A stretch of 64,000 nucleotides of DNA from Hyaloraphidium curvatum (Eukaryota > Monoblepharomycota > Hyaloraphidiomycetes > Hyaloraphidiales > Hyaloraphidiaceae): contig JAIVFI010000030.1 in NCBI GenBank assembly GCA_025558095.1, positions 1 to 64,000 of the forward strand, written 5' to 3'. Position numbers and translations under genes: made by a program. The notes beneath the pieces are model-generated. The model was not told the DNA's origin and did no database searches. It worked only from the letters and a program-made list of their open reading frames with translations. This document shows, in pieces, positions 33,933-62,191 of the stretch. Position 1 is the first letter of the stretch, and each line of letters starts with the position of its first letter.

Positions 33933-33965
33933 TTTTGTTGACGTGGCGGTCGCTGAATCGCGGAT

Positions 33966-33980
33966 CGCCGATTCTGGGCG
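33966..33980 (+). repeat. Left target-site duplication of the retroelement
   Basis: CGCCGATTCTGGGCG, repeated exactly at 36100-36114. The neighbouring bases differ at both copies, so the duplication is 15 bp. Confidence 0.85.
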
Positions 33981-36099
33981 CTCGGCGGAGCTCCTTTTCC
34001 GGATCACCATGTACGAGGGCAACATCCAGGGCGACCCGCTGTCGTCTGCCATCTTCTCCTGCGCCATGAGCCGCATGCTGCGGCCCCTCCGCTCTGGGCA
34101 CCCCGACTGCCTCATCCTTGGCTACCTCGACGACCTCACCGTGGTCGGGCCGCTCAACTCGGTCATGGCCGTCCTGGGAGAGGTGCGTGACGGCCTTGCT
34201 TCCCTCGGCATGACCCACCGCCCGGACAAGAGCTACCTGCTTTCGCTCTCGACGGACCCGGCCGAGCTGGAGCGGGTGCGCGCGGCCGGTGCGGCCCACA
34301 ACATCCGCGTCGCTGGCTTCCCGCCTCACGAGGCCGACCCCGAGGTGCATGCCACGGCGTCGGCCCCGGGCTCGCCTGACTTCGCTCGCTCGTGCGGCCT
34401 CAAGGTGGTCGGTGCCCCGGTCGGCACCCCTGCCTATGTGGAGTCGTTCCTCGCGGCCAAGATCGACTCCATTGCCGCTCTTCTCGATGAAATCGAGCGC
34501 GCTGCGCTCGGCTACGCCATGCCGGCCGACATCCCCTCCCTCCAGGGCCTGTACTCCCTCCTCCGTCTCTGTGTGACCCAGCTCTTCTCGTTTTGGCTCC
34601 GCATTCTCCCCCCCTCGGTTACCCAACCCTTTGCTCGACGTCTTGACAACGCGCTTTTCACCACCTTCTTGCGCTTGCTGGGAGATCGGGCCGAGGATCT
34701 GGATCCGCTGTCGGTGGAGGGTCGGACTGTGCGGGAGCAGGTATTCTTGGGTCTGCACTACTCGGGGATGGGGCTTCTGTCATCGGAGAAGGTGGCCTCG
34801 GCGGCTTACCTGTCTTCACTCAACCTCACGGCGGGCCCCTTGGACGCCATGCTTGGTCTTCGAACCTCGGCCCGGGGTGTGGGCGTGGAGCACGTGCGGG
34901 AACTGGTTCCCATCATCGAGGCCCTCCGCCCTGCCTTTGAGCGTGTCGAGGATGACACGGCCGCAGCGTACGCCGAGGCTGCGCGTGCTGGGCAACCGGT
35001 GGGCGCCGCGCCCGCCCGCCGTACGCTCCCTGCGGACGCCAGTTTCTTCGCTCAGCCGGTCTGGCACGGCCTGCAGAGCGACCTTACGCGTCTCGAGGAC
35101 CAGCGCCGCCTCGCGGCTCTGATTGCCTTGCAACCCGACACTTCCGCTGGTCTGGAGTGCCGCAAGCGGCTCGTCCAGGCGCAGGACGGCCTGTCGGCTT
35201 TCCTGACTGCCTCTCCCGCGCTGCTTGCCAACCACATTCGCAACTACTTTTTCCGCTTACTTGTACGCTTCCGGCTTTGCCTCCCGCTCCTGCACGAGGC
35301 CGACTACCCTGGTCTTTCCTTGCCCTGCCGGCGGGGATGCAAGCGATCGGCCATGTCGCTGACGGGGGAGCACGCGTTCTCGGGCTGCTATGGCCGGGAT
35401 CTCTTCAGTCCTGGTCACGACGACATTTGCGCGGCCATCCGCGCGGCGCTTCGCTCCATCCCGCTCCTCCGCGTGCACCCCATGCCGCCAAACCTCCTTG
35501 CACATGGCTACGAGACTGTCACCCCGCCCACGCCTGCGGATGCTGGCCGCCTTGGAGACGTTCTCATCACGCACCGCGAAACCCGGAAACGGTGGTTGCT
35601 CGAGATCAAGACCCTCACCTCTATGGCCCATTTGCACACGGGCCTGGTCTTCTCGGTCCCGGGCCACGCAGTCGAACGGCGGGTCGAGGCCGCCAGGAAG
35701 GACTACTCCCGTTTCGTCTTCAACGCCAACTTCTACCCTCTGATCGTGATTGCTTTTGATTCGTACAGCGCTGTCTCTGACACTTTCTCGCGCTTCTCCT
35801 CGGAGATGGGGCGCATCCAGTATCCCGGGATCGTCGGCCGCGATGGGCAGCCCGTGGACCTCGATGGCCTTTACTCTCGTTTTGTGCGGCGCTTCCGCGA
35901 ACGGATCGCGGTGGCCTGGGCTCTTGGCGTCGCGGCCCAACTCCAACACTGGCTTCAGCTGTGCACCGAAGCCGCCGCTGTCAACGCTCCGGCCCCCGCG
36001 CCGGTCGCTTTTGGTTTGAATGTAGATGAGGAGCTGATTCTTGGGGCGTAGGGGGATTTCTAAGTGTACGGTGGGATTGCTAGCTCCTCATTACACCAA
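33981..36099 (+). mobile_element. 5'-truncated non-LTR retrotransposon with restriction-like endonuclease
   Basis: The inserted segment lies exactly between two copies of a 15-bp target-site duplication. It begins inside the reverse-transcriptase domain and ends without an obvious poly-A tail (TTACACCAA). The missing 5' portion includes the fingers and the first catalytic Asp of the RT, typical of incomplete target-primed reverse transcription. The one long frame is undamaged, indicating a young insertion. Confidence 0.85.
33994..36051 (+). CDS. Truncated retrotransposon polyprotein: RT, zinc knuckle, RLE endonuclease
   Basis: The frame is open through the insertion boundary and stops at 36049-36051. 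RT motifs visible are GNIQGDPLSSAIF and the catalytic GYLDDLTVVG (YLDD). A thumb-like helical region follows. Near codon 475 a Cys/His cluster, C-X3-C-X10-H-X4-C (beginning CRRGC), precedes FSPGHDDI. The endonuclease PD-(D/E)xK-type core is GDVLI...LEIKT. RT followed by a CCHC knuckle and RLE is the layout of R2/NeSL/CRE-like non-LTR elements. No start codon of its own remains; translation would need read-in from outside. Catalytic residues of the retained parts look intact. Confidence 0.85.
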   Translation, partial: LFRITMYEGNIQGDPLSSAIFSCAMSRMLRPLRSGHPDCLILGYLDDLTVVGPLNSVMAVLGEVRDGLASLGMTHRPDKSYLLSLSTDPAELERVRAAGAAHNIRVAGFPPHEADPEVHATASAPGSPDFARSCGLKVVGAPVGTPAYVESFLAAKIDSIAALLDEIERAALGYAMPADIPSLQGLYSLLRLCVTQLFSFWLRILPPSVTQPFARRLDNALFTTFLRLLGDRAEDLDPLSVEGRTVREQVFLGLHYSGMGLLSSEKVASAAYLSSLNLTAGPLDAMLGLRTSARGVGVEHVRELVPIIEALRPAFERVEDDTAAAYAEAARAGQPVGAAPARRTLPADASFFAQPVWHGLQSDLTRLEDQRRLAALIALQPDTSAGLECRKRLVQAQDGLSAFLTASPALLANHIRNYFFRLLVRFRLCLPLLHEADYPGLSLPCRRGCKRSAMSLTGEHAFSGCYGRDLFSPGHDDICAAIRAALRSIPLLRVHPMPPNLLAHGYETVTPPTPADAGRLGDVLITHRETRKRWLLEIKTLTSMAHLHTGLVFSVPGHAVERRVEAARKDYSRFVFNANFYPLIVIAFDSYSAVSDTFSRFSSEMGRIQYPGIVGRDGQPVDLDGLYSRFVRRFRERIAVAWALGVAAQLQHWLQLCTEAAAVNAPAPAPVAFGLNVDEELILGA

Positions 36100-44817: not shown

Positions 44818-44945
44818 AGCTGTGCAATTGGAAGCCGAGCCTGTGACACTCACTGCTTCGGGTGAAGCTTCCACCCCGCCAATTACCCGCATATTGCTCC
44901 CCCACCGCAGCTACTCCAGAGATTCAGGACGCGGAGGCAATCGAC

Positions 44946-46457
44946 ATGCCCCTCCCGGTGTTCCACCTCGGCGAGGGCGAGTGGCTCGCGGTCCTCCCCG
45001 CGGCGCCGGAGTGGACGCCCGACCTGCCCTCCTCCGCCCCGCCGCCCGACCCCGCGGCAGCCGTCCGCGGCGCGCATCCCCTCGCGCTGGACGCGTTTCT
45101 GGCTGCGCTGCGGCCCGGCGCGGGCGCGCTGGCCTTCTCGGTGCGGCTGCAGATCGCCCTCGAGCCGCTGTCGAAGAGGCCGCTCGCGCGGGCCGCGGTG
45201 CCGTGGCTGGGCTGCGTCGGCATGGCCGCCGCGTTCGGCGTGTATGCCGGCGGATACTACGGGACGGCACAGCTCGCGACCGGGATGGCGACGTTCCTCG
45301 CGTTCGCCACCTGCTCGACCGTTCTGGTCTCGGCATTTAGCGCGTACCGGGTCACCTTCAACACCGTGAGCTCCGGCAACGATTCGAAAGCAGCCGCAGA
45401 ACCGAAGCCTGCCCGCGATTTTTCGTCCTACGGTGCCGCGGGGCTCGCCCGGTGGATGCAGCTGGTTTCCGGGGCGCTGCCTGGAGGGGCCGGGGGCCTG
45501 CTGCTGCTTCACGACCCGAAGGATCCCCTCTGCCCTTGCGGCGTCACGTCGTGCGCCGGGAGGATCCCGCTCCTGGCCGGGGTGACCCGGATCGCCGAAT
45601 CGGCATTCAAGTTCTGCATCTTCTCCGCCTACATCTTCGTGCTGTTCGCCAGCATAGCCCTCTTCCCCCCCATGGCGCCGGAAATGTGGGCCGTCCCCTG
45701 GGCCGTCTTCCTCTTTGTCATCTTCCTCGCCGGCGCGCTCGGCTTCCTGATCCCCGTCGTGTTCTCCCGCCTGACCACGAACCTCCCGCTCCTCCAGCTC
45801 GCGCGCAGGATCAACCGTCGCGCAATGAGGCTCGCCCTCGACCCCGTGGTCGAGAGCTACCGTTCCGCCGCCGCGGCTTCCGGCCCGTGGACGGGCCCCG
45901 ACAAGCCGCAGCGCGCGGCGTACATGGACCTGCACCGCATCTTCGCCAGCTCCTGGGGCAGCCGGATAAGGACGTACAACGTCTCGTCGCCGATCCTGAT
46001 CCCCATCGCCGCGGCCATTGTGGCCGGCTGCGCCAACATGGCCGCCGGATCGTGCCTCCCCGCCGTGTACCCCGTCTACCTCGCGTACCAGCTCTGCGCG
46101 CTTTTCCTGTTCGACCTCATCAACGTCGCCGCGGCCAACGCCCAGATCAGCGACATCCGCTCGCTGTACCTCGACGCGGCGCAGGAACTGGCCGACGTCC
46201 GGCGGGAGCTCCTCTCGTGCCCCTCGCGGCCCCCGGACCCGGCGCTCGCCGCCGCCATCGAGAGCGACGTGCAGGTGCTGGCGGGCTACATGGACATGGA
46301 CAGGTACCGCGCCAGGTTCCTGGGGTTCGTGGTCACGTTCGGCGCGCTGCGGACGCTGCTGGCGACCGCCCTGACCCTGGTGGTGGGGCTGTGGAGCGTG
46401 CTCAGGGGGCTGGGGGTGGAGCTCACGGGGCAGCTCGCGTGCCCTCCGAGGCTGTGA
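44946..46457 (+). CDS. Multipass membrane protein, CPCxxC family (copy A)
   Basis: Single exon; 503 aa from the ATG at 44946 (an upstream in-frame ATG at 44862 adds 28). An acidic/Pro N-terminal region (GEGEWLAVLPAAPEW) is followed by two TM helices, a cytoplasmic-type loop with C196-P-C-x4-C (CPCGVTSC), four more hydrophobic helices (IFSAYIFVLFASIALF, FVIFLAGALGFLIPVVF and others), then YRARFLGFVVTFGALRTLLATALTLVVGLWSVLRGLGV. The same order and spacing occur in copies B and C, with CPC at residue 194 in C. No known family recognised. Copy B is tail-to-tail with it, 136 bases away. Confidence 0.75.
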   Translation: MPLPVFHLGEGEWLAVLPAAPEWTPDLPSSAPPPDPAAAVRGAHPLALDAFLAALRPGAGALAFSVRLQIALEPLSKRPLARAAVPWLGCVGMAAAFGVYAGGYYGTAQLATGMATFLAFATCSTVLVSAFSAYRVTFNTVSSGNDSKAAAEPKPARDFSSYGAAGLARWMQLVSGALPGGAGGLLLLHDPKDPLCPCGVTSCAGRIPLLAGVTRIAESAFKFCIFSAYIFVLFASIALFPPMAPEMWAVPWAVFLFVIFLAGALGFLIPVVFSRLTTNLPLLQLARRINRRAMRLALDPVVESYRSAAAASGPWTGPDKPQRAAYMDLHRIFASSWGSRIRTYNVSSPILIPIAAAIVAGCANMAAGSCLPAVYPVYLAYQLCALFLFDLINVAAANAQISDIRSLYLDAAQELADVRRELLSCPSRPPDPALAAAIESDVQVLAGYMDMDRYRARFLGFVVTFGALRTLLATALTLVVGLWSVLRGLGVELTGQLACPPRL

Positions 46458-46592
46458 GCTCGTCGAGGGTTTGGACGCCGAGTGCCACCCCATGAGACGG
46501 GAGATGTCGCATGCTGATGAAGGCATTGTTGAACCCACTAGCAACTTTTTTCTGCTTAAACTCCTAAACTTTCACCGCTGCAACTTCTCCGC

Positions 46593-48118
46593 TCAAGCCG
46601 TTGCAGGACAGAAGCTCTCCAGGGTCGCCGTCACCCCGAAAGCCCGCAGCACGCTCCCAAGTGCCACGGTGACCGTCAGGCCCGTCACCAGCATCGTCCT
46701 CACCGTCCCGAACGACACCACGAACCCGAACAGCCTCGCCCTGTACCTGGCGACGTCCTGGAACGACGCTATGGCCCGATCGTGCAGCGCGATCTCGTCC
46801 GCCAGGGGTCCCGGCCCGGTGCGGAGGGCGAGCGCGCGGAGCTCCCGCTGCGCGTCGCGGTAGACGGCCGCGACGGCGTCGATGAGCGAGTGGCGCGCGG
46901 CGAGGTTGACGGCGTTGACGGTAAAGTACACTGCGGCGTGAGCGAAGAAGGCGAGCTGCCATGCGGAGATGCAGCGGCCGACCGCCTGCGGAAGGTGCCC
47001 GGGGAGCCGTCAGGGTGCGCGTCCGGCTGTACCGGGACGGCGCAATGCTCACCGCATAGAGCGCGGTAAGCAGGGCTAAGCCTGGAATCAGAGCGAGCCC
47101 GAACAGCCGCGATAACACGAGCGAGTCCTGGTGCCGCCGGAACCGGCACAGGGCCGCAAAGTGGTAGTGCAACCTGACATAGAGCCACGAACGTGAGCGG
47201 GGAGGGACGTCGCCGGCCGCAGCTGCGCGGCGGAACCGTCCTAGGAGGTCTCCCATGGCGTTGTCGACGGCGCGGCAGTGCAGCCGCCGCTCCAGGGCCA
47301 GGTGAGCCATGTTGTCCACCGCAAGGAGCCGGGAAATAGACAACAAGAGTTGCGCCGGGAAAAAGAAGGTCCATATTGCGCCGAGGAGGATGCCGTACCA
47401 AGTCGACCAAATACCTGCGCCGAAGGTTACCACCGGAGTATACGCGAGAAGGAAGAAGGTTGCCCAGGGAATGGAAACGTTGCCGAGAATATCAAGGAAG
47501 TCAAGCATACCAGAAGCGCTCTCGACCCAACTGCAGCACGAGACACACGGGCATGAAAGGTCACCGGGCACATGGCGTACGAGGGACGAGGCGGCAATGC
47601 CGGCCTCTGGCGACTTGACCCGGCCAACGAGGCGTAGCCATCTGCAGAGCGCTCCCACGTGCGAATACTCCGCCCCACCGTTGAGGAGGAAGTTCTTGCC
47701 CAGGCCCTTGGTAGCCAACCCGTTCATGACCGCGTTCCCGGCGAGGAACAAGGCCACGCCGGCGATTCCGAACGCAGCATCCTTGGCGGCGAACGTGTCT
47801 CCCGAAAACAGCAGGGTAACCCCGAGCAGAGCCACGGTAGCTGCGCTCGAAGGAGTGAGAAGAACCAGCCCGGCACCGCCCCGGGACACGCAGCCCGAGC
47901 CACGCCGCAGCCTTGGCCACCCCGCCGAGGTCGCGCAGCATTCCGTCTGCGGTCAGCGGGTCGGCCGCACGCGCCGCGTCGTTGGGGTTCGCGCCCTGCT
48001 CCTCGTCGCAGAACGTCGGCACCGGGGGAGACGGGGCGGGGAACAGGGCCAGCCACTCCTCGGGGAGGAAGTCCGCGTCCTTCTGAGGGAGAACGTCGTC
48101 GGTGTCCGAGGCGGCCAT
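46593..48118 (-). CDS. Multipass membrane protein, CPCxxC family (copy B, possibly frameshifted)
   Basis: It starts at 48118 (MAASDTDDVLPQKDADFLPEEWLALFPAP...) and aligns residue by residue with copy C at 60655. Around 47870-47900 it lacks one base and about ten more bases relative to C, changing frame; an intron with donor C|GTGTCC and acceptor CGCAG could also bridge it. Downstream the family pattern is complete: LSCPCVSCC, multiple helices, and RYRARLFGFVVSFGTVRTML. A second intron (GTGAGC donor at 47052, acceptor before 46985) matches that of copy C. The last about 200 bases are nearly identical to C. It could be functional if the intron reading is right. Confidence 0.6.
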
Positions 48119-48945
48119 CGTTAGCGGCGTTGCGGGGGGAATGTGTCTGGGGTGCTTCTGTGGAAGGGCTGGGACCAGTACGTTGTCTCCCGCGGCCGAC
48201 GAGTAACTACCTGCATCGCCGGCGTCCGAAGCTATTTCGCATGGTCGCGAGCATTGGAGCGATTGCGTCCTTCAATGATCCGGGCGCCGTTTCCCGTAGA
48301 CTCCTCGCACCGGCCCTAACGGCCTCGAAACGGCATGGCCTGCGCAGGCTTTCTCTCTACTCGTGACCGCCGGTGCTCTTCGTCATCGCCCAAGCGGCCG
48401 ATCCGAAGCCTACAGCTGTGACGTGCTTCTTCTCTGCGGTCGCCGCTGCAAGCCTTCGGCAATGCAGTTTTCGCGACGCGGCGGAGCCGCTATTGTTGCG
48501 GGTCCCCGATCTGCGGAGCTGTCTACTGCGGCACTAGAGGTCACTTGCCCGAGATGCTTTTGCACCGTCTGCCAACGTGCAACCTTTAATGTGAGGTAGG
48601 GTTGGCGCTTGAGTGGTGAGGACTCACAGGATCAATGGCCGGACCCGCAGGGTCCGAGGCGGCGGCACGGCTTCTGGAACCAACAAGGTCCGCCGGCCCG
48701 GGCGCGAACGGTGATGCATTGGATTGTTTCGGACCACGGAATCCGTGAGTGTGCTTACTTGGTTCAATGTCCGATGTGTCACGTCTCTCGGCCTGACGAT
48801 GGAATCGGCGCGGCGAATGCGAACGGACGGACACCCCAGCCACGCCAGAGCGGCGGCAGGGGAGGTCTTTGCGGCAAAATCAACCGCAGCAACGGCTCGC
48901 AACTCCGCCGCGTGAGCTTCTTCGAGTCGCTTCGCGCTTGCCGTT
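48119..48945. other. Intergenic region
   Basis: About 830 bases with no supported gene. Confidence 0.4.
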
Positions 48946-49161
48946 ATGAGGCCGCCGGCCTTCGCGCTCCTTGCCGCGCTGCTCTTCCTAGCGTTCCTCT
49001 GGGCGCCGCGCGCGTCCGGCCTCGCCGTTCCCTCCCAAGCCGGCGAAAATGAGGAGCATGCGTTGGCTGCGCGAGTGGCCTCCCCCGGGGGCCAGGCTTC
49101 CGGTCCGTTGCGGTCAGGCGAGATCTGGTCGGTCCTACGCGAATCCGCTAGGGCGCGCTAG
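48946..49161 (+). CDS. Small secreted peptide (hypothetical)
   Basis: 71 codons starting MRPPAFALLAALLFLAFLWAPRASG, an excellent signal peptide, followed by a polar Ala/Glu/Gly-rich tail. Its stop overlaps the antisense end of the GPI-type gene by four bases. No family recognised; could be chance. Confidence 0.4.
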   Translation: MRPPAFALLAALLFLAFLWAPRASGLAVPSQAGENEEHALAARVASPGGQASGPLRSGEIWSVLRESARAR

Positions 49162-50498
49162 CACATGGCAGCCAACGCAGCCGCGGCGGCAAGTGCGGGC
49201 ACCAACCCGGCCATCGCCCTGTTCCCGCCGGCGATCCGGCTGCTCGTGACGGTGCTGGTTGCGCCGGTGGTGGATGCGATGCTGCTGGACGCGATGGTGC
49301 TGGAAACCACAGTGCTGGACGCGAGGGTGCTGGTCGCGGTGGAGCTGGCGTCGGTGCTCGGGGCTATCGTGCTCGGGGCCGCAGTTTCCGTGGTGCTCGG
49401 AGCGGCGGTGCTGGGAGCGGCGCTGCTGGTCGCAAGAGTGCTGGGGACCGCGGTGCTGGAGACAACGGTGCTGGATTCCACCGCGCTGGATTCGACCGTG
49501 CTGCTGGCCACCGTGCCTGTGGAGGCCACGGTTGAAACCGGGGTGCCGGTCCCCGCGGCACTGGATGCGATCGTGCCCGTCGCGACGGTGCTGACGGTGG
49601 CGGTGGTCGAGCCGGAGATGGCGGCAAAGGGGATGGCAGGGGAGCCGTCGACGACGGAGGCGCACCTGGCCGTCATGGCGACTGCGGCGGGGAAGTTATC
49701 GGCGTGCAGTAAGGGGGGAGAGAGAGGGGGCCATACAGGTGATGGGGCCGAGCGAGACGGTGCCGCAGTTGCCGGCGGTGACGTCGAAGGTGCCGACGCC
49801 GGTGAAGGGGATCTGGGGTGGCAGGAAAACGCGTCATGGGAGGCGGCCAGCAGGCGACGGGGAGAAACCCACGGTGCAGGCGTCGTTACCGAAGAAGGCC
49901 ATGGTGCCCGAAGCGGCGCCAGGGGCGCAGGCAGGGCGGCCGAAGGCGGGGATGCCGATGAAGCCGAGGGGCACGCACTGGTTGGCGATCACGGCGGCGG
50001 CGGTGAGGTAGGTGCCGGAGCAGGTGGCGCCGGACCACTGGGTGACGACGAAGTAGTCGCCCTGCGGATCGGAGCGGAGCGTCAGTGCTGGGCCGCGCGC
50101 GGAAATGGCGCGCGGCAACCCACCGAGCCCTGGAGGGTGAAGGACTGGGGTGCATTGGCGTTGCAGGTCTGGGTCACGTCGTAGGGCACGTTGGCGCTGC
50201 TGGACATGCATGCGACGCTCCCCTGGCAGGTGGTCGGCAAGTTTGCCTGGACTGCTTGGGGGGGAAGGGGGTGAACGGGGGACACTGATCAGTGAGGGGG
50301 GAAGGCGCCGCGGCAGCACGCACAGAGCTGCGGCGCCGTGGCGTTGGCCGTGCAGCCGCTGTCGGGCAGGAAGCCGTCGATGATGGTGGCGCCCCGGGCG
50401 GGAACGGCGGCCGCGGCGAGCAGGGCGGCGATGATCCCGAGCGCTCTGACGCGCAGCGGGAGTCCTGACTGCGAGCAGCTATTCTGCCGCCGAGTCAT
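49158..50498 (-). CDS. GPI-anchored-type protein sharing the receptor-kinase ectodomain
   Basis: Five exons on the minus strand: 50498-50324, 50251-50124, 50061-49873, 49812-49737 and 49681-49158; 363 aa. Exons 2, 3 and 4 (128, 189 and 76 bases) are exactly the lengths of those in the kinase at 58061, and exon 3 encodes an almost identical protein (DYFVVTQWSGAT...GFIGIPAFGRPACAPG). Instead of TM plus kinase, exon 5 encodes a long Ser/Thr/Ala/Val stalk with SST repeats, ending GNRAMAGLVPALAAAAALAAMC: a small-residue site and hydrophobic tail typical of GPI attachment. A signal peptide precedes GATIIDG. It could be a co-receptor, decoy or wall protein. It lies between receptor kinase 2 and membrane-protein copy B. 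Confidence 0.8.
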
Positions 50499-50986
50499 GT
50501 CGGGATGGGCATCGGAGACGTGAACCGAGAAGTTCCCGAGCGGTCCGAGGACGCGTCGCCGGTCCATCGGCCGTGCTCGGTCGCAATGCAGTACTGACAC
50601 TCAGACGACCCGACGGCGTCGTCGCGGCCGCGAGATCCCCTCTCCACCGGAATTCCGCTCTCCGCCCACGCGCCGCACAGTGCCGGCTCCTGCGGGTTCG
50701 GTCGAGGCAGCGACGGAACTTGGCCGCTGGCTCCCTGGACGGGGCGAATTGCGACGCGGCGGGCGCCCGTCCCCGCGCCTTCGGCGGAAGAAACACTGAT
50801 GATGCGTTGCCGCAGGAGGCCCGCTGCGCAGGTCTTGAGGACTCGGCGTCGGGAAGGAGGGTGGGGACGCGCGGGCTGGTGATCTGACTCGACAGGATCC
50901 CCGCTCCCCGCTCCTCGAATCACAGCGCAGACAGACTTGTAAACACGATTGCTTAACAAAAATCGGGCGAGCTTCTACCGTCGTCC
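50499..50986. other. Spacer carrying duplicated 3' flank of the kinase gene
   Basis: About 490 bases. The part at about 50907-50952 (minus: CAATCGTGTTTACAAG...GCGCTGTGATTCGAGGAGCGGG) matches the 3' flank of the other kinase (60531-60580), showing that the duplication extended past the stop codon. Confidence 0.6.
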
Positions 50987-53384
50987 CTATCCGACGATCT
51001 CGTCCAGCTCCTTGGCCACCTGCACGAACGTCGGCCTCTTCTTCGGGTCCTGGTCCCAGCACCGCTCCATAAGGCTCCACACTGCGTCCGGAACCCCCTC
51101 GGGCCGCTCCGGGCGGACGCCCTTGACGGCAACGTTGTACAGGACCTGGATGGGAGGTGGTTGTCAGCGTTTGTCGCGATGGCGGCGCTCGCACCCACCA
51201 ATGCCGGGTTCAGCAGCTCCTCGAGCGGGTACTTGCCCTTGCTCACGACCTCGTAGCACAACATCGAGAACGCGTACACGTCCGCCGGCTTCTGCAGCGC
51301 CGCGCCGTCCACCAGCTCCGGCGCCAGGAACCCCGGCGTGCCCGAGAGCCCGCCGCCGACGGTGCCCGCGGCGGTCGACTTGCCGACCTCCTGGCGCACC
51401 CGCGAGAGGCCAAAGTCGGTGATCATGGCTTTGCTGCCGTCAATGAGCACGTTGAGGGACTTGATGTCGCCGTGCAGGATGCCGAGGCCGTGCAGGTAGA
51501 CCATGCCGTTGGCGACGTCTTCGAGGAAGCGCAGGCCGAGGTCTAGGGGCCAGCCGCGGGCCGACAGGTACTTGCGGAGGTTGCCGTCGCGGACGAGGTC
51601 GGTGACCATCATCGGGGGAGAAGGGCAGTAGGCCATCAGCGGGAGGACTGCGTAAAAGCGTGGAGATCAGCACCTCCACAGACTCCGAGCCGTTGGCGAG
51701 CCGCTCACCGTTACGCTGGACGAGGCCCTCCCAGTTGGTCACCTCCTTCGCAAAAGCCTTCAGGGTGTGCTCGTCGAGGTCTCCTTTCAGAGTCTTGACT
51801 GCGACTCTAGTCCCGCGCAGAGTGCCGACATAGACAACCCCAAAGCTGCCTTCTCCCAGCTTTTGCGAGCTGTCGATGACGATGTCCGTAGCCGAAACAA
51901 GGAGCTTGGAGCTCGGCTGCGGGACAGGGGGGGGGGCGATCGGGCTTCCGCCCGGAAAAAGGGGAGTGCCGGAGGCGACCGACCCAGCGGCGAGCGTGGA
52001 TCCTGCTGTGTCCGCAGAAGCTCCGTCCCCAGAGGCTGCCAGAGGAAACGCAAGAGCAACGGCGGCAGCGGGTGTCACGGGTAAAGCTTGCTCCTGGTGT
52101 GGGTCGTTGCTCGGCACTGAGGCGACGTCCTCCGCGAGCGCAGGGTTGCTGGCTTCGGAAGGTGAAGCCGCCACTCGCGGCACGCTGTCAGCGTTGCCCC
52201 TGGCGGTGGATGAAAACCCGCGAACTGTCCCAGGTTCCATATGCGGCGAGCCTGCAGGCATCTGCTTCTCTGCTTTCTCCGCAGGAATGCTCTCCGCAGG
52301 CCTCCTCCTCCGCCTCATCCAGAACAGCAGCACTACAAGCAGAGCAAGCGCCGCGAGTCCCCCAAGTACACCGCCTACGATTGCTCCGACGGGCGGCGAT
52401 GAGGAGGTCGGCGGAGAAGGGAGAGGCGTTGATTGCGTTGGCGTCGTGGTGGTGACGGATTGGGTACTTGTCGTGGCAACCGATCCCCCTGTAGCCTCTG
52501 CAAATGGAATCGGGAAACCCTGAAGCGGGTAATCGCACTTGGCCGTTAGAGCGACTGTGGCGAAACTGGTCACCAGAACTTCACGAAGAACGGAGCCGGA
52601 GGGCATACACGTAGCAGAACCGAGATTCAGAATGTCGCAGTGGCCGCGAATGGCTTTGAACGTGCCAAAGCTGGGGAAGGGCCTCTGCATGGATGCCGTG
52701 CGCATGAATAGGGTAACGCAGAGCGCGCATGAGCGGTAGGGGAAAACGTACCGAACAGGCCCCGTCAACAAAGAAGGACAAGCTCCCTTCCGCGTCGGTG
52801 ACGCCGGAGCATGTGGAGAGGCCATAGGCCGGGATGCCGAGGAAACCAAGCGGGACGCACTCATTGGTGAGCACCGCGGCGGCGGTAGAATATGTGCCGG
52901 AGCAGGAAGTGCCGGACCATTGGGTGAGGACGAAGTAATTGCCCTGCGCGGAAAATGCAAGAATCAATGGAGAGAGTGGGCGCGGCAGAAGGCGAGTGAA
53001 GAACCACCGTGCCCGAGAGCGTGAATGACTGAGGGGCGCTTGCGTCGCAAATCTGCCGAGCGTCGTAGCCAACGCTGGAAGTAGATTCACAGGCTAAATT
53101 TGCCTGACATGTCCCGGGTAGCTGGGCTTGGATTGATGGCGGTTTCGATGCCGGCCGAGTAGTGGCCGGTGTGAGCACGCACGAAAGAAATCAATGCTGC
53201 GCGGCAGCTCACAGAGCTGCTTGAAAGTGCCTGCAACAACGCATCGGCTCCCAAGAGTGAAGCCGTCGATGATTGTCGCGCCCCGTGCAGGAACCGCCCT
53301 CGTGATGATGGCGGCGATGATCGCGACCACGATGACGCGAGGCGCCGCTAGCGGCCCTGAATTATTGCTCCGATGCGCAGTCAT
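50987..53384 (-). CDS. Receptor-like TKL-type kinase 2 (non-RD)
   Basis: Minus strand, start 53384, stop 50989-50987, with the same intron plan as kinase 1. A signal peptide (VIVVAIIAAIITRAVPARGA) is followed by an ectodomain of about 170 residues: QLPGTCQANLACES, FVLTQWSGTSCSGTY, GFLGIPAYG, ATFALTAKCDYPL. Then come a Thr/Ser/Pro linker, one TM helix (AIVGGVLGGLAALALLVVLLF) with RRRRR after it, a Pro/Ala/Ser juxtamembrane region and the kinase: GEGSFGVVYVG, VAVKTLK, HGDIKSLNVL, DFGLSR, GTPGFLAPEL. The HRD Arg is Gly (HGD), so it is a non-RD kinase. Its kinase domain is nearly identical to that of kinase 1, introns included; its ectodomain is much more different. Confidence 0.85.
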
Positions 53385-54086
53385 GCTCGAGATCAACGTC
53401 GTAGCCACGCGTGTGCGGTGGCGGCACTTCGTCCCCCCGCGTCGGACTGCGCCCCGGCACAGCCGATCCGATGGCAAAGTCCGCGGGCGCGAACTCCGCT
53501 TGCGGCAAAGTGGTGGCCGGAACCCGCTCGGTGGCGCCGTGCGCTTGAAGCTCGGGGCGAGGGAGCAACGGAACGTTGCCACGGGTTTGGGGTCGCGTGC
53601 GACGCCGCGGCAGGCCGCTTGAGGACCGCGTCCCGAACTCCGACGAGGTAAACCCAACTGCAGCGCCAGCCCAGGCAACGGGCCTAACGTCCGGGAACTG
53701 AAGGCCTGTTTGAAGGCCCACGGCAGCGACTATGACCGCACGCGAAGCGGTGGTGTTCCTTGGAGCGGAGCGAGGGACCTCAACGAAGTCGAGCGCACGT
53801 CCTCGGGGCACGTGGGCGGCGCGGGGAGGGTTTCCGCGTCGGCACTCGTCCCGTCCAGGTCGAAAACCCAGCGTAGTTTTCGAGCAGGGGAGAGAGCGGC
53901 TGGTGGCGGCTGGAGGTCCGACGGTTCCAAGGACGCACTCGTCCGAGAGAGCCTGTACGTCTACATCCCTCACGCCCGCTTGGAGGCAGCTCGAATGGAG
54001 CAGCAAAGGAATCAAGAGCCGCCTTTTCGCGATTGTACAGGCCTGCAATTAGCATCTCGGCGTCAAACAGCTTCATGCTCCTGTGG
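53385..54086. other. Intergenic region
   Basis: About 700 bases; no supported gene. Confidence 0.4.
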
Positions 54087-55406
54087 TCATCTTCGATCAA
54101 CGGCCTCTGCCCGCCCGCCAATCATCTCCACTTCCGCCTCCCCATCCAAGTCCCCCAGCGGCTCGTCCAAAACCCCCTCCTGCACCCCTTCCCCGCCCCC
54201 GTCCTCCTTGGGCGCCTCCCCGCACCCCTCCCAATCCACCGTCCACCTCGCCGCGATCCCCATCTCGGCCTTCCACCCCTCCCCCGTCCTCAGGCAGTCG
54301 TTGAGCCCCGCGTGCTCGCACCCCTTCGATCCCGAATAGACGCAGTCCGAGCGCGCGCGGAGCAAGGGGGCCGAGTACAGCGCGGCCCCGCCGAACGCGC
54401 CCCGCACGGGTACGAACGGTTCCTTCCCCTCGCCGTCCCCCTGCTCCTTCACATTCTTCATCCCCTCGGGCCCGACATACTCGCAATACCACCCCCCTTT
54501 CTTCGCCCCCGCGCAGCTGCGGTGGTCCAGCGCTCCCCCGGGAAACGCGCCCCCGCCGTCGAGCGCGAACCGGTCGCAGTAGTATCCTTGCGCCCCCTCC
54601 GCGTGCGGCGCGGCGGGGACGGATGCGACGGTGCCGTTGGGGAGAGAACGGGGGAGGTACCACCCACAGATGCCGTTGGGGAAGAGGGCGGACCAGCCCT
54701 TGCCCCCGAAGGGCGGCCGGAGGTGCGAGGTGGAGGGGTCGAGGCGGTCGTACCGCCGCTCCGCGGCCAGGAGGTTGGTCCACACACCCTCCCATCCCTC
54801 CACGCCCCGCTGCCGCTCCACGCGCCACGGCACGCACATGTCCGTGTCCACCGGGAACAGGTAGTCGACGTTCGAGTACCAGGAGTGGGTCCGCAGCGCG
54901 TGGAGGTACCCGTCCCGCGCGCGGGCGAGCGTGCGGAGGTCCTTCTTCCCGCCCGGGTGGCGGAACGCGACGGCGCGGGCAGAGAGGATCTTCGGGTGTC
55001 GCGAGGGGCGGAGCGGCGGGGCCGGCGGGGCCGGCGGGTACGGAGGCGTCCAGTCTTTATGGTCGTCCTCGGATTCCAGGAACGGCACGCCGCGTTCGTC
55101 CGCCCAGGCGCGCAGCGCGCGGCCGCCGTCCCGCGAGCCGTTCTCGACGAGGAGGACGTGCAGCGCGCCAACCATCGACGCGAGGCGCTCCAAATTTGCG
55201 AGGAGGAAGGGGAGCTCGTGCGCCGCGGAGCGGGCGATGGTGGCGGCGAGGAGGACGAGGTCCGACGGGCAGCGCGCGCGGGACGCGTTGGAGGCTGTCC
55301 GTGGCGCGGGCTCCGGCTCGTCATCGAGGGCGGCCGGCGGCGACCGGAGCAGGAAAAACGACGAAATGAGCAGGACGAGCAGAACGAGTAGGTTCGGATG
55401 GGGCAT
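54087..55406 (-). CDS. Type II membrane glycosyltransferase (CAP59/GT-A-like)
   Basis: Single exon, 439 aa. Residues 5-21 form a signal-anchor helix (LLVLLVLLISSFFLL). The luminal domain has PFLLANLERLASMVGALHVLLVENGSRDGG, an EN.S.DG motif common to CAP59-type and related alpha-mannosyltransferases, then LARARDGYLHAL and VDTDMCVPW, a DxD-like metal site. Trp/Gly/Tyr-rich segments (NGICGWYLP, CDRFALDGG) and six or more cysteines follow. The C-terminal tail is acidic. It probably acts in Golgi glycosylation; donor and acceptor unknown. It is divergent from the F-box/LRR-like gene. Confidence 0.65.
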   Translation of the reverse strand: MPHPNLLVLLVLLISSFFLLRSPPAALDDEPEPAPRTASNASRARCPSDLVLLAATIARSAAHELPFLLANLERLASMVGALHVLLVENGSRDGGRALRAWADERGVPFLESEDDHKDWTPPYPPAPPAPPLRPSRHPKILSARAVAFRHPGGKKDLRTLARARDGYLHALRTHSWYSNVDYLFPVDTDMCVPWRVERQRGVEGWEGVWTNLLAAERRYDRLDPSTSHLRPPFGGKGWSALFPNGICGWYLPRSLPNGTVASVPAAPHAEGAQGYYCDRFALDGGGAFPGGALDHRSCAGAKKGGWYCEYVGPEGMKNVKEQGDGEGKEPFVPVRGAFGGAALYSAPLLRARSDCVYSGSKGCEHAGLNDCLRTGEGWKAEMGIAARWTVDWEGCGEAPKEDGGGEGVQEGVLDEPLGDLDGEAEVEMIGGRAEAVDRR

Positions 55407-55824
55407 TCGAGGCCATGGGCGACACCGTTGACGGCTCTGACGGATCCGTCGATCCCCCTCCCTCGATCTCCGAGCAATTCAAGAAACCAACGACGTGAGC
55501 CACGAAATGCACAGATATACATGTGATCTATCGAGTTCGGCCTACTGGAAGTGTGGATGCTCGCGATTCGGACAGGAATCGTCCCGACCGTCCGCCGCGC
55601 CCATTCGCCGCCTGGAAGCCAACTGAGCCTGATCCGCCAATGCATGACACCGCGGAGGACACGGAAGAGCCTCTCACCAGTAAATTGCGCCCGTCTTTGC
55701 CAGTTTCGGTCGCTTGCCTCCGTTTGGGGGCCTACCAACGGTCACATGACGTGGCCCATGCAGGGCATCTGGTTCCGCACGGCCGGCGGTCCCTTATCTG
55801 ACGGCGTCATCCCGGCCCACCGGA
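55407..55824. other. Divergent intergenic region; axis of the inverted block
   Basis: About 420 bases between divergent genes. It is roughly the midpoint between the two inverted kinase units. Confidence 0.4.
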
Positions 55825-57366
55825 ATGGCGCTCGTGTGCAGCTGCGCGACGACGCAGCTCGTGCTCCGCGGCACGGGCTCGCTGTCGCTGGTCGGCGGGG
55901 CCGGGCGGCCGCCTGGGGAGCGCGCCGCGGAGATGCCGGTGGCGACAACCGCGCCCGCGGGAGTCCAGGGTCCCGGACGCCCCGGGTTGCCCGGAGAACT
56001 CGTATCGCGCATTTTGAGCAAAGTGGACCCGCTGGACTCGGCGACGCTGGCGGCCGCCGCGGCGGTGTGCCGCGCGTGGCGGCCGTGGGCGACCGAGCGG
56101 CTGTACGCGTACTGCCGGCCGCCGCTCTCAAAGCTCGACTCGCTGGCCGCATTCTGGGAATCTCAGTACCCTTCGGGCGACGACGCGCCCTCGGCCAGCC
56201 TGCTGCTCGACGCCCCGCGGCTGCAGCACGCCGTGCGACTGGACGGGCTGTTCCCGCTGCCCCCCGCGCCCTCGTCGCTTCCCGACCACCCGCTGAAAAC
56301 CCTCGACCTCTCGCTGCTCTCGCACGCTTCGGCAGCCGCCTTGCACCGCTTGGCCCTGCACTCCCCGCCGGCCTCGGCCCTGGTCACCGCGAAAGACTAC
56401 CGCCACATGGCCGGCGGCTCCCTGGCCGCCCTGCTCACCCGCTCGCCGCGTCTGCTCCGCCTCGTCCTACCGGAAAGCTACGGCGAGGACCGCCTCTCCA
56501 TCGACGACTTTTTCCTCTCCCTGCTCCCCACCACCGTCCCCCTCCTCGCCCATCTGGCCGTGTACGACAACGGCCACGTGACGGACCGCGGCCTCCCGCC
56601 CTTCTCGCAGCTCCCCCTGCGCTCGCTCCACCTCGCAGTCGTGCCGTGGCGCGTGATTCTCGCAAAATTGCTGTCGCACCTGCCGCCCACCCTGGAATCG
56701 CTGGGCATGGGCAAGCTCAAGGCGCGCGACGCGGACCAGCTCGTCTGGTTCCTCCGCGACCACCCTTCCATGAACGAACTGGACCTCCCCCACGCCGAGC
56801 CCGGGTTCTTCGCGGGCGGCACCGTCGCCCGCCTCCTCGACGCCGCCCCGGCGCTGGAGAGGCTGGGGATCGAGGTCGAGCCCGGGCAGACCATCCCGCC
56901 CCCGCCGCCTGCGGAACCGGAACCACAACCTGCGGAAGGCGAGCAGCCCGATGCCGATCCCGGCGGCGCCGAACAGCTGCAGCCGCCCCCCGTCGCCGCA
57001 CCGGCGCCGCAGGAGCCGGAACCGCACTACCTCTCGGGCCTGCTGTCCCCTCCCCCGTCCTTGACCCACCTCCGCGTGGCGGGGCACGCGCTGCCTCCCG
57101 ATCTGCTCCCCCGCGTGCTGCCGCAGCTCGTCGCGCTGGACGCCAGGGGGTGCGGGGCGGAGGTGGCCGCGGCGTTCGCGGCGGGGGCAAGGTACCCGAA
57201 GCTGAGGATGGTGGACGTGCGAGGATGCGAGGGCGTGGAGAGGGAGGTGGTGGTGGCCGCGTGCCCGGCGCTGGAGAGGGTGTTCGTTGGGGAGATCAGG
57301 CAGGGGGACGGGCTGCGGGAGTGGGGCGCTTTCGGGAGCGAGGGGGGGAGGTGGAACCTCTCTTGA
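55825..57366 (+). CDS. F-box / leucine-rich-repeat-like protein
   Basis: Single exon, 513 aa (a later start at 55933 is possible). Residues 52-95 contain GLPGELVSRILSKVDPLDSATLAAAAAVCRAWRPWATERLY, an F-box pattern (LP.E....L..L.......A..VCR.W). The rest is rich in regularly spaced leucines (LLRLVLPES, LRSLHLAVVPW, LESLGMGKL, MNELDLPHA, LTHLRVAGHAL, LVALDARGCG), consistent with irregular LRRs, interrupted by a Pro/Glu/Gln-rich insert near residues 355-400. F-box/LRR proteins are usually substrate receptors of SCF ubiquitin ligases via Skp1. Confidence 0.7.
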   Translation: MALVCSCATTQLVLRGTGSLSLVGGAGRPPGERAAEMPVATTAPAGVQGPGRPGLPGELVSRILSKVDPLDSATLAAAAAVCRAWRPWATERLYAYCRPPLSKLDSLAAFWESQYPSGDDAPSASLLLDAPRLQHAVRLDGLFPLPPAPSSLPDHPLKTLDLSLLSHASAAALHRLALHSPPASALVTAKDYRHMAGGSLAALLTRSPRLLRLVLPESYGEDRLSIDDFFLSLLPTTVPLLAHLAVYDNGHVTDRGLPPFSQLPLRSLHLAVVPWRVILAKLLSHLPPTLESLGMGKLKARDADQLVWFLRDHPSMNELDLPHAEPGFFAGGTVARLLDAAPALERLGIEVEPGQTIPPPPPAEPEPQPAEGEQPDADPGGAEQLQPPPVAAPAPQEPEPHYLSGLLSPPPSLTHLRVAGHALPPDLLPRVLPQLVALDARGCGAEVAAAFAAGARYPKLRMVDVRGCEGVEREVVVAACPALERVFVGEIRQGDGLREWGAFGSEGGRWNLS

Positions 57367-58060
57367 TCGGATCCTCGGGGAGGCGGATGGGGACGGTGCC
57401 GATGGGAACGGGAAGGAAGGGAACAGTGTCTTGCCGGATGGGAAGGGCGCTTGCTAGATGTACAGGTAGACGGCGGCGAAGAAAGGCCGATAGACAGATG
57501 CAGTAGTGGAACCTATGGGTTGGGAACGACCCGCTCTCCATCTTCTTCCTAACTGGAGCAAGAGCAGCCGTGCCCCGTTGTCCTTGCGACTCGTGGCGCG
57601 TGCTCTCCAGTTTTCTTCGCGTGCGGACGTCGGCAGTCGGCATGCACCTGCTTCGATTGCTTCGAGTATCGAGTATCAGCCTCACCAGCCCACCTCTACT
57701 TCGACCCACGTCTCCACGTCTCGCTACCGGATACCTGTTCACCGACCGGGCCGCCCGCTTTCGTCGACCAATCTTCTGCTTACGGGGCAGGCAGTGTTGG
57801 CTGCCACCGCAACGCACGGCGCACCCGCAGCGAGGAAACCGGCACTGCGCGCGGGTTCTTTCATTGCCTCGCTCCGCGCTCGAAGGAGCAGCACCCGCGG
57901 TGCCGTCCGCACCGTGCGGCGCTTAGACGGAGAGTGAAGCCCTCGGGCGCTCCCACATCGGGCCGGGTGGTGCCGCATCCCGGCGGGCGCGAGGTCCACC
58001 GCGCCCTCGCTTCGTTGTCGGTCTTTTCGCGGCCCCCCTCGACTGCGCCGCACAGCCAGG
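57367..58060. other. Intergenic region upstream of receptor kinase 1
   Basis: About 690 bases; no supported gene. Confidence 0.4.
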
Positions 58061-60498
58061 ATGCCTCCGCGACGACTTCGCTTACAGCCGCGACGAATGA
58101 CGCGCGTCTGCGCTGTCGGGATCGTCGCCGCGTTGATCGCCACGCGCGCGGTTCCGATCTGGGGCGCGACCATCGTCGACGGCTTCATCCCCGGCTCGGG
58201 CTGCAGGGTCAACGCCACCGCGCCGCAGCTCTGTGCGTCGACGCCCGGCCCCCACCCGCTCCTCACTGATCATGTCCCCCCTTTCCCTCTCCTGCCGAGC
58301 AGTCCAGGCGAACCTGCCGACCACCTGCCAGGGCAACGTCGCCTGCATTCCCAGTAACGCCACAGTCAACTACGACGTGACCCAGACCTGCAACGCCAAC
58401 GCCCCCCCGTCCTTCACCCTCCAGGGCTCGGTCGGTTTCCGCGCCCCATTTCCGCGCCCGGCACACTCTGACGCCCCCCTCCCCCTCCCATCCGCAGGGA
58501 GACTACTTTGTCGTCACCCAGTGGTCCGGCGCCACCTGCACCGGCACCTACCTCACCGCCGCCGCCGTGATCGCCAACCAGTGCGTGCCCCTCGGCTTCA
58601 TCGGGATCCCCGCCTTCGGCCGCCCTGCCTGCGCCCCTGGCGCCGCTTCGGGCACCATGGCCTTCTTCGGTAACGACGCCTGCACCGTGGGTTTGGCCTC
58701 GTGGCCCAGCGCCCGCCCTCCCATGACGCGTTTGTCCTGCCGCCCCAGATCCCCTTCACTGGCCTCGGCACCTTCAGCGTCACCGCCGGCAACTGCGGCA
58801 CCCTCTCGCTCGGCCCCTCCACCTGTAAGTCCCCCACTTCCCCGCCCTTTACCCCGCGCTGACAACTTCCCACCCACAGTCGCCCTGACCGCCAAGTGCG
58901 CCTCGATCGTCAATGGCTCCCCGGTCATTCCTTTTGCTGCTATTGCGGCGGTTACAACTACGACAACAACCACGACAACGCAAACGTTCACCACCGCGAC
59001 ACCAACAGAGGCGACACCGGTTCCTCCAACGCCAGCATCCTCATCTCCACCTGTTGGGGCGATCGTCGGTGGCGTGATCGGAGGAATCGCGGCGGTCGCG
59101 GCCATCGCCGGGCTGTTGTTCTGGCTGCGGCGAAGAGGTAGGCCTGCGGAAAGTGTTCCTGCGGATCCAGCAGAGAAGCAGCAGCCTAGAGGCTCGCCGA
59201 ACCTGGAAACCGCTGCGACAGCTCAGCACTACAAGGGAGCGGGCCCACCACCAGCGCCAAATGGCTTCGTTGCTTCTGCTCCAGTTCCCGCAACCATTGC
59301 CGTTGACAGTGTCCCGCGAGTGGTGGCTTCAGCTCCCGAACCTAGCAAAACCGCACTCCTCGTGGACCTCGCCTTGGTGCCAAACAATGACGCGGAACAA
59401 GCTTTGCCCGTGCAGCACGCTGCGGCCGTTGCTCTTGCTTCTCCTCCGTTGGGTATAGGGGGTGGAGCTGAGGACACGGGATCGACCTTCGCCGCGGCCT
59501 CACTTGCCTCCGGTGCTCCCCTTCCCCCCGGCGGCGGAACCCCGATCGCCCCCCTCCCTGTCCCGCAGCCGAGCTCCAAGCTCCTTGTTTCGGCTACGGA
59601 CATCGTCATCGACAGCTCGCAAAAGCTGGGAGAGGGCAGCTTTGGGGTTGTCTATGTCGGCACTCTGCGCGGGACTAGAGTCGCAGTCAAGACTCTGAAA
59701 GGAGACCTCGACGAGCACACTCTGAAGGCTTTTGCGAAGGAGGTGACCAACTGGGAGGGCCTCGTCCAGCGTAACGGTGAGCGGCTCGCCAACGGCTCGG
59801 AGTCTGTGGAGGTGCTGATCTCCACGCTTTTACGCAGTCCTCCCGCTGATGGCCTACTGCCCTTCTCCCCCGATGATGGTCACCGACCTCGTCCGCGACG
59901 GCAACCTCCGCAAGTACCTGTCGGCCCGCGGCTGGCCCCTAGACCTCGGCCTGCGCTTCCTCGAAGACGTCGCCAACGGCATGGTCTACCTGCACGGCCT
60001 CGGCATCCTGCACGGCGACATCAAGTCCCTCAACGTGCTCATTGACGGCAGCAAAGCCATGATCACCGACTTTGGCCTCTCGCGGGTGCGCCAGGAGGTC
60101 GGCAAGTCGACCGCCGCGGGTACCGTCGGCGGCGGGCTCTCTGGCACGCCGGGGTTCCTGGCGCCGGAGCTGGTGGACGGCGCGGCGCTGCAGAAGCCGG
60201 CGGACGTGTACGCGTTCGCGATGCTGTGCTACGAGGTCGTGAGCAAGGGCAAGTACCCGCTCGAGGAGCTGCTGAACCCGGCATTGGTGGGTGCGAGCGC
60301 CGCCATCGCGAGCTTCGCTGACAATCACCTCCCACCCAGGTCCTGTACAACGTCGCCGTCAAGGGCGTCCGCCCGGAGCGGCCCGAGGGGGTCCCGGACG
60401 CGGTGTGGAGCCTGATGGAGCGGTGCTGGGACCAGGACCCGAAGAAGAGGCCGACGTTCGTGCAGGTGGCCAAGGAGCTGGACGAAATCGTCAGATAG
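58061..60498 (+). CDS. Receptor-like TKL-type kinase 1 (non-RD)
   Basis: Seven exons: 58061-58232, 58303-58430, 58498-58686, 58749-58824, 58880-59776, 59838-60286 and 60340-60498; 689 aa. A signal peptide (AVGIVAALIATRAVPIWGA) precedes a Cys-containing ectodomain (to about residue 200; GDYFVVTQWSGATCTGTY, GFIGIPAFGRPACAPG). A Thr run and Pro/Ser linker follow, then a TM helix (residues 246-270) ending FWLRRRGR, a low-complexity juxtamembrane region, and the kinase domain (about 430-689). Key residues: GEGSFG loop, VAVK459, HGDIKSLN catalytic loop, DFGLSR, GTPGFLAPE, RPTFVQV at the end. HGD instead of HRD makes it non-RD. The ligand is unknown. The membrane-protein copy C follows 157 bases downstream on the same strand. 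Confidence 0.9.
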
Positions 60499-60654
60499 GC
60501 CCTACGGTAGATGTCCCCACTACTTTTGCAATTCAATCGTGTTTGCAGATCTGGCGGCGCTGTGATTCGAGGAGCGGGCTGGCCACGGCGCGACTTCCTC
60601 TCCCCCGCGAATCTCCCGCAGATTGTCTCCCGAGCAGACAGCCTCCCAACGACG

Positions 60655-62191
60655 ATGGCCGCCTCGGGCGCCGACGACGTTATCCTTCAGAAGGACGCGG
60701 ACTTCCTGCCCGAAGAGTGGCTGGCCCTATTCCCCGCCCCGTCTCCCCCGGTCCCGACGTTCGGCGACGAGGAGCAGGGCGCGAACCCCGAGGACGCCGC
60801 CCGCGCAGCTGACCCTCTGACGGCGGACGGAATATTGCGCGACCTGGGCGGCGCGGCAAAGGTGGCGGCGTGGCCCGTCCTGCGCGTCCACGCGGCGCTG
60901 CCGGGCTGGTTCACGGCACTCGCGATTTCCCCTTCCAGTGCCGCCACCATCGCCCTCCTCGGGCTCACCGTGCCCTTGGCAGGGGACATGTTTACCGCCA
61001 AGGACGTGGCGCTCGGAATTGCGGGGACGACGCTGTTTCTCACAGGGCTCTCTGTCAGTTACGGCCTCGTCAGCCCGTTCCTCGGCGCCAACATTTTTCG
61101 GAACGGCTTGGTGGAGTTCTCGCACGTGGCAGCTCTTTGCCGATGGCTGCGGCTCGTTGGCCGAGGGAAAACGCCTCAGGGCGTCGAGGCCGCCTCCTCG
61201 CCCCTCGTGCGCCACGTCCCCGGCGACCTCTCTTGCCCGTGTACGTCGTGCTGCAGTTGGGTCGAAAGCACATCTGGAATCCTCGACTTCCTCGATCTTT
61301 TCGGCAACGTTTCCCTTGGTTGGATGGTCTTGTTCTTTTTCGCCTACACACCGGTTGTAACCTTCGGTGCGGCCCTGTGGTCGACTTGGTACGGCGCTCT
61401 CCTTGGGGCCATATGGGCATCCATGTTTCCGGCTTACATCTTCACTGCGTTGTCACGCCTCCTGGGGAACGACAATATGGCTCACACGGCCCTCCAACGG
61501 CGGCTGCACTGCCGAGCTGTCGATATGGCCATGGCTGACCTCCTGAGCCGGTTTCGCAGCGCCGCTGCTGCCGGCGATGCGCCTCCCCGCGCGGATTCGT
61601 GGCTCTACGTCAGGCTGCACTATCGCTTCGCGGCGCTCTGCCGGTTCAGACGCCAGCAGGACGGGATCGTGATCTCGCGGCTGTACGGGCTCGCTCTCGT
61701 GCCGGGTGCGGTCCTGCTTACCGCGCTGTATGCGGTGAGTGTCGCAGCGTCACGGTGCCGCCGGACACGCAACCTGACGGCTCCCCGGGCACCTTCCGCA
61801 GGCCGTCGGCCGCTGTATCTCCGCCTGGCAGCTTGCCGTGTTCGCCCACGCCGCGGTGTACTTTACCGTCAACGCCGTCAACCTCGCCTCCCGCAACTCG
61901 CTCATCGACGCCGTCGCGGCCGTCTACCGCGACGCGCAGAGGGAGCTCCGTGCGCTCGCGCTCCGCACCGGGCCGGGACCCCTTGCGGACGAGATCGCGC
62001 TCCACGACCGCGCGATAGCGTCGTTTCAGGACGTCGCCAGGTACAGGGCGAAGCTGTTCGGGTTCGTGGTGTCGTTCGGGACGGTGAGGACGATGCTGGT
62101 GACGGGGCTGACGGTCGCCGTCGCGCTGTGGAGCGTGCTGCGGGCTTTCGGGGTGACGGCGACCCTTGAGAGCTTCTGTCCCGTATCATAG
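60655..62191 (+). CDS. Multipass membrane protein, CPCxxC family (copy C)
   Basis: Two exons, 60655-61734 and 61802-62191 (67-bp intron with a GTGAGT donor, CTGACG branch and CAG acceptor); 489 aa. An acidic N-terminus (DADFLPEEWLALFPAPSPPVP) is followed by two TM helices, a loop with C194-P-C-T-S-C-C, further TM helices (FFFAYTPVVTFGAALW and others), a region rich in Arg/His (RRLHCRAVD, FRRQQDGIV), and a C-terminal pair of helices (AVFAHAAVYFTVNAVNL, FGFVVSFGTVRTMLVTGLTVAVALWSVLRAFGV). It is the best-preserved member of this family in the window. No known family is recognised. It shares strand and short spacing with receptor kinase 1, as copy B does with kinase 2. Confidence 0.8.

Follow-up and report, generated by a model that had tools for sequence, protein, structure and literature searches.

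In a 64,000-nucleotide stretch of Hyaloraphidium curvatum DNA (positions 1 to 64,000 of contig JAIVFI010000030.1, here C30; referred to below as the window), three genes use the same ectodomain. Two of them, K1 and K2, combine it with a transmembrane segment and a kinase, and the third, G, carries it in front of a Ser/Thr stalk and a GPI-type tail. This arrangement was proposed in an original prediction, and models of the three genes, rebuilt by hand from their splice sites, confirm it. The outer limits given at that time, 49158 and 60498, are also the limits of the spliced models. The features are as follows:

49158-50498, minus strand: G, kinase-less gene with ectodomain, Ser/Thr stalk and GPI-type tail; five exons (50498-50324, 50251-50124, 50061-49873, 49812-49737, 49681-49158)
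49873-50061, minus strand: exon 3 of the ectodomain in G, 189 nt
50987-53384, minus strand: K1, transmembrane receptor kinase, seven exons
52304-52408, minus strand: transmembrane segment of K1, conserved in a genome-wide receptor family
52752-52943, minus strand: exon 3 of the ectodomain in K1, 192 nt
58061-60498, plus strand: K2, transmembrane receptor kinase, seven exons; ectodomain near that of G, kinase near that of K1
58498-58686, plus strand: exon 3 of the ectodomain in K2, 189 nt
59038-59136, plus strand: transmembrane segment of K2, from hydropathy and genome-wide transmembrane-segment matches

In these hand-built spliced models the exons measure 175, 128, 189, 76 and 524 nt in G, 172, 119, 192, 76, 846, 449 and 159 nt in K1, and 172, 128, 189, 76, 897, 449 and 159 nt in K2. 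The introns, each between 53 and 86 nt and thus short, are all of the GT-AG type. The spliced lengths show that the exact agreement of exons 2 to 4 (128, 189 and 76 nt), first ascribed to G and K1, links G to the kinase gene at 58-60 kb and not to the one at 51-53 kb. Likewise, the near-identity of exon 3 stands for G and K2, which share 185 of 189 nt (98%), but not for K1, whose exon 3 is about 70% identical to the other copies. K1 and K2 are laid out alike: a hydrophobic segment at the N-terminus is followed by the Cys-rich ectodomain (about 175 residues), a Thr/Pro-rich stretch, the transmembrane segment and the kinase. Hydropathy analysis shows the transmembrane segment as the only other strong hydrophobic segment of each protein, with a run of Arg right after it. 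Both fit a single-pass receptor-like kinase architecture, as judged from gene models and hydropathy rather than from a trained predictor.

Alignment of the ectodomains gives a protein identity of 87% between G and K2, and of about 55% between G and K1. We found no Pfam family in G at E values up to 1; in K1 and K2 no family covered the ectodomain, and no match to the ectodomain rose above a curated cut-off. Membership of a known housekeeping family, which the original prediction had named as a case that would speak against it, is thus not what the Pfam searches indicate. A search of PDB sequences with the ectodomain yielded matches only at E 0.25 or worse, and tblastn confirmed no relatives in bacteria, archaea or viruses. 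An internal three-fold repeat was considered and rejected, since aligning the modules of a fourth copy, G2 (see below), to one another gives no better result than aligning shuffled sequences. By these searches, the outer domain common to G, G2, K1 and K2 is an undescribed one. Structure prediction, suggested as a check, gave no reliable model when run on K3, a single-exon relative (AlphaFold2, mean pLDDT 45), and the K3 model had no meaningful fold match.

The kinase domains of K1 and K2 match PF07714 in Pfam (E about 1e-49). Their catalytic loop reads HGDIKSLN, in which HGD replaces HRD and the Arg preceding the catalytic Asp is absent; the Lys at position +2 points to a Ser/Thr type kinase. 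HGD is found in 19 of 19 kinases aligned from the same genome, all of which also keep the +2 Lys and the Asp residues of HxD and DFG. The ATP-binding Lys is present in 16 of the 19, K1 and K2 included. The two kinases are classified as TKL-type Ser/Thr kinases. Receptor tyrosine kinases were ruled out, as the loop is HGDIKSLN and not HRDLAARN or HRDLRAAN.

To the kinase-less genes we applied a home-made GPI rule, which, not being a trained predictor, asks for a signal segment, small omega residues, a spacer and a hydrophobic, charge-free end. G passes, in line with the GPI-like tail first noted, as do the GPI-type genes G2 and G4 elsewhere in the genome, and K1 and K2 fail. Among 105 background ORFs two pass, one of which is possibly the last exon of G itself. 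The kinase-less proteins of the locus are therefore probably GPI-anchored. Exon 3 has nine matches in the genome (31.9 Mb, 55 contigs): four on C30 (G, K1, K2 and G2), four on C48 and one on C25. The C25 match belongs to K3, a divergent receptor kinase carrying the ectodomain. The fourth copy on C30 lies 3.5 kb outside the window and was missed in the original prediction:

C30:67531-68473: G2, short GPI-type gene with exons of 130, 128, 189, 76 and 173 nt and almost no stalk

The C48 copies do not represent a second haplotype, which we ruled out because C48 is a fold-back contig repeating C30. Positions 1-12184 of C48 are self-palindromic, with 99.4% identity to their reverse complement, and what follows is a 99.95% identical repeat of C30 from position 50530 on; the contig has the look of an artefact of assembly or library preparation. 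C40 holds a GPI-type gene, G4, and a receptor, R4, that have one ectodomain exon in common, with 94% protein identity. In the R4 model (C40:424.1-426.4 kb) 5 nt are deleted and an in-frame start is missing. R4 is thus possibly decayed, and the C40 pair may not work as a pair. Weaker kinase-less relatives occur on C38, C3, C12, C13 and C32, and those on C38 and C3 have, by eye, GPI-like tails. The C3 gene (C3:1095000-1099500) contains three tandem ectodomain-related modules in front of its tail.

The receptors of the window belong to a larger family, plant-like in character. Matches to their transmembrane segment number 40 outside C48, and 25 of these have a kinase match at most 3 kb downstream on the same strand; at least 25 loci thus pair the transmembrane type of K1 and K2 with a kinase. 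We compared the region upstream of the kinase at 16 further loci, using unspliced genes. A stretch like the ectodomain of K1 and K2 precedes the kinase on C24 and at two loci on C6. Other upstream stretches are Stig1 (PF04885)-like or RCC1 (PF13540)-like, assignments for which Pfam was run on one example of each type, the remainder being made by eye; some stretches have no assignment. Stig1-like Cys repeats occur in receptor-kinase genes on C16, C8, C38, C10, C3, C24 and C6, several of which have one more domain in common, placed ahead of the transmembrane segment. RCC1-like repeats take the place of the ectodomain in receptor-kinase genes on C37, C15 and at C40:332k. In a kinase tree of partial coverage, with weak support for its deeper branches, the ectodomain-bearing receptors fall in three places (K1 and K2 with the C24 and C6 loci; K3; R4). 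One fungal genome would thus hold exchangeable ectodomains (the present domain, Stig1-like and RCC1-like) over TKL-type kinases.

The Zn2Cys6 and division-I chitin synthase families point to fungi. The genome has 96 Zn2Cys6 matches, with one of the stronger ones inside the window, and three places that match division-I chitin synthase. The two families are without a match in 14 control genomes, a weak comparison because the named control genomes are prokaryotes. By this family content the genome is fungal. According to published surveys (PMC5854419, PMC6733946), fungi have no receptor kinases, and the earlier remark that such an arrangement is unexpected in a fungus agrees with both papers. 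A phrase search found no paper on such receptors in fungi, within a collection that has few subscription papers and no bioRxiv preprints. An expansion of TKL kinases in a fungus is known from Laccaria bicolor (PMC2838846). The two cases are alike in their expanded TKL-type kinases, but in H. curvatum the kinase forms one protein with an ectodomain and a transmembrane segment, whereas the word 'transmembrane' is absent from PMC2838846. If the present reading is true, the statement that fungi lack receptor kinases changes, and another kingdom becomes available for studying the origins of receptor kinases.

K1 and K2 sit in an inverted duplication, with a gene for a multi-helix membrane protein on either outer side:

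46606-48121, minus strand: outer arm, multi-helix membrane protein (gene about 46560-48200), partner of 60652-62181
50907-51952, minus strand: putative conversion tract covering kinase, two introns and 3' flank, 96% identical to 59533-60578
59533-60578, plus strand: partner tract, covering kinase, two introns and 3' flank
60652-62181, plus strand: outer arm, multi-helix membrane protein (gene about 60560-62190), partner of 46606-48121

Divergence between K1 and K2 varies along the genes. The kinase has a dS of 0.050 and a dN of 0.002, the transmembrane/juxtamembrane part a dS of 0.90 and the ectodomain a dS of 1.07. The ectodomains of G, G2 and K2 differ by a dS of only 0.09-0.19, with patchy identity: exon 2 is identical between G2 and K2 (128 of 128 nt), and 87% identical between G and K2. 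For the outer membrane-protein pair, dS is 0.15-0.25 in two stretches. K2 is, on these values, a mosaic, with an ectodomain close to those of G and G2 and a kinase close to that of K1. Protein-level selection is insufficient to explain the 1046-nt tract shared by K1 and K2, because it includes introns (intron 5 is identical at 61 of 61 positions) and the 3' flank. Its sharp borders, taking in introns, indicate gene conversion, and the best shared tracts beat every shuffle, a test that treats sites as independent. We read the pattern as gene conversion that has kept the kinase halves of K1 and K2 similar and passed pieces of the ectodomain between G, G2 and K2, although unequal duplication ages may account for some tracts instead. 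The dN/dS ratios are 0.29-0.56 for ectodomain pairs and about 0.03 for the kinase pair; values below 1 indicate that purifying selection is acting on the copies and speak against diversifying selection between them. The original prediction had named dead genes as a further case against it, and both the open frames and the ectodomain ratios argue otherwise.

How the parts would work together can be proposed from the sequence comparisons. K1 and K2 would sense an extracellular ligand through their Cys-rich ectodomain. The copies with a GPI anchor, located at the membrane or within the wall, would bind the same ligand or partner as the receptors and adjust signalling in the role of a co-receptor, a ligand presenter or a decoy. 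We hold this reading, a local receptor-kinase cluster that senses a ligand and has this ligand or a partner in common with its GPI twins, with about equal confidence and doubt. The GPI twins and conversion tracts would then be a concrete case of receptor/co-receptor or receptor/decoy coupling. The main rival, which is possible but doubtful, is that G and G2 are ordinary GPI wall or surface proteins outside signalling, that the receptors adopted their domain for sensing the wall or wall ligands, and that conversion is neutral. Several contigs also carry kinase-less relatives that are not near receptors, one of them built of three tandem modules, and the kinase-less proteins may therefore simply be cell-surface proteins; moreover, conversion covers kinase and introns, where the matching of receptor and twin is not at stake, and it can take place between neighbours that have no functional link. 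Such a wall-protein origin sits less well, however, with the two loci at which a GPI-type gene adjoins a receptor of near-identical ectodomain, and with G2, which is nearly stalkless, unlike a typical wall protein.

Homophilic recognition, in which the ectodomain binds itself and the receptor of one cell takes the GPI copy on a neighbouring cell as its ligand, would serve to tell kin or self from non-self in the manner of SRK/SLG. The near-identity of receptor and twin in exon 3, the conversion between them and the second receptor/GPI-type pair on C40 are consistent with this, but we consider it improbable. The copies have a dN/dS below 1, exon 3 hardly varies among three of the four, and the comparison is between paralogues of one assembly, C48 not being a second haplotype. 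Self/non-self recognition, which the original prediction had entertained, is unsupported in a form that works by diversification, for the same two sequence reasons, the low dN/dS and the near-invariant exon. An origin of the locus as a side effect of recent duplication, with one or more of G, G2 and the kinase copies turning into pseudogenes, would fit the inverted duplication and the frame breaks in the R4 model; it is very unlikely, however, given the conserved splice sites and open frames of G, G2, K1 and K2 and the low dN/dS in ectodomains and kinase. The favoured ligand-sensor reading can be extended to plant-style receptors with swappable ectodomains and conversion-matched GPI twins forming a two-part recognition system that follows an SRK/SLG-like or receptor/decoy logic with unrelated parts, an extension that we regard as rather unlikely.

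In the plant SRK/SLG system, a receptor kinase lies beside a kinase-less gene of nearly the same ectodomain, with gene conversion between the two. The present locus resembles it in having a receptor and a kinase-less twin homogenised by gene conversion, as seen in the tracts and the dS contrast. It differs in that Pfam detects no S-domain (B_lectin, SLG, PAN) in the ectodomains of G, K1 or K2, and in that G is GPI-type whereas SLG is secreted; the comparison here also comes from the paralogues of one assembly. TRAIL-R3/DcR1 is a GPI-anchored decoy receptor. It too carries the ectodomain of a signalling receptor on a GPI anchor, with the genes in one cluster, but it is built from TNF-receptor domains, and its signalling partners have death domains and no kinase. 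In the plant LysM receptor complex the kinase partner is a LysM receptor kinase. The complex also includes the GPI-anchored, kinase-less LysM proteins CEBiP and LYM2 (PMC13402948). The likeness lies in a GPI-anchored kinase-less protein alongside a receptor kinase; in contrast, the H. curvatum ectodomains have no LysM match, are almost the same as one another and are encoded at a single locus. The DUF26 domain of CRKs, PDLPs and secreted forms is described in PMC6368629 as land-plant-specific and lectin-like. It is likewise a domain of secreted or surface proteins and of a large receptor-kinase family, but the H. curvatum ectodomain has no Pfam match to it.

Two further observations concern the surroundings of the genes. 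The multi-helix membrane proteins had no Pfam match (two tested) and no PDB sequence match (one tested), and an insect-type chemoreceptor fold was rejected for the neighbour, whose low-confidence long-helix model (mean pLDDT 48) gave no match. Four such paralogues adjoin ectodomain genes: the two outer arms, 44862-46457 (plus strand) and C30 about 69244-70518 (plus strand). Finally, a long open frame at 33943-36051 (plus strand) resembles, by eye, a reverse-transcriptase-like mobile element.
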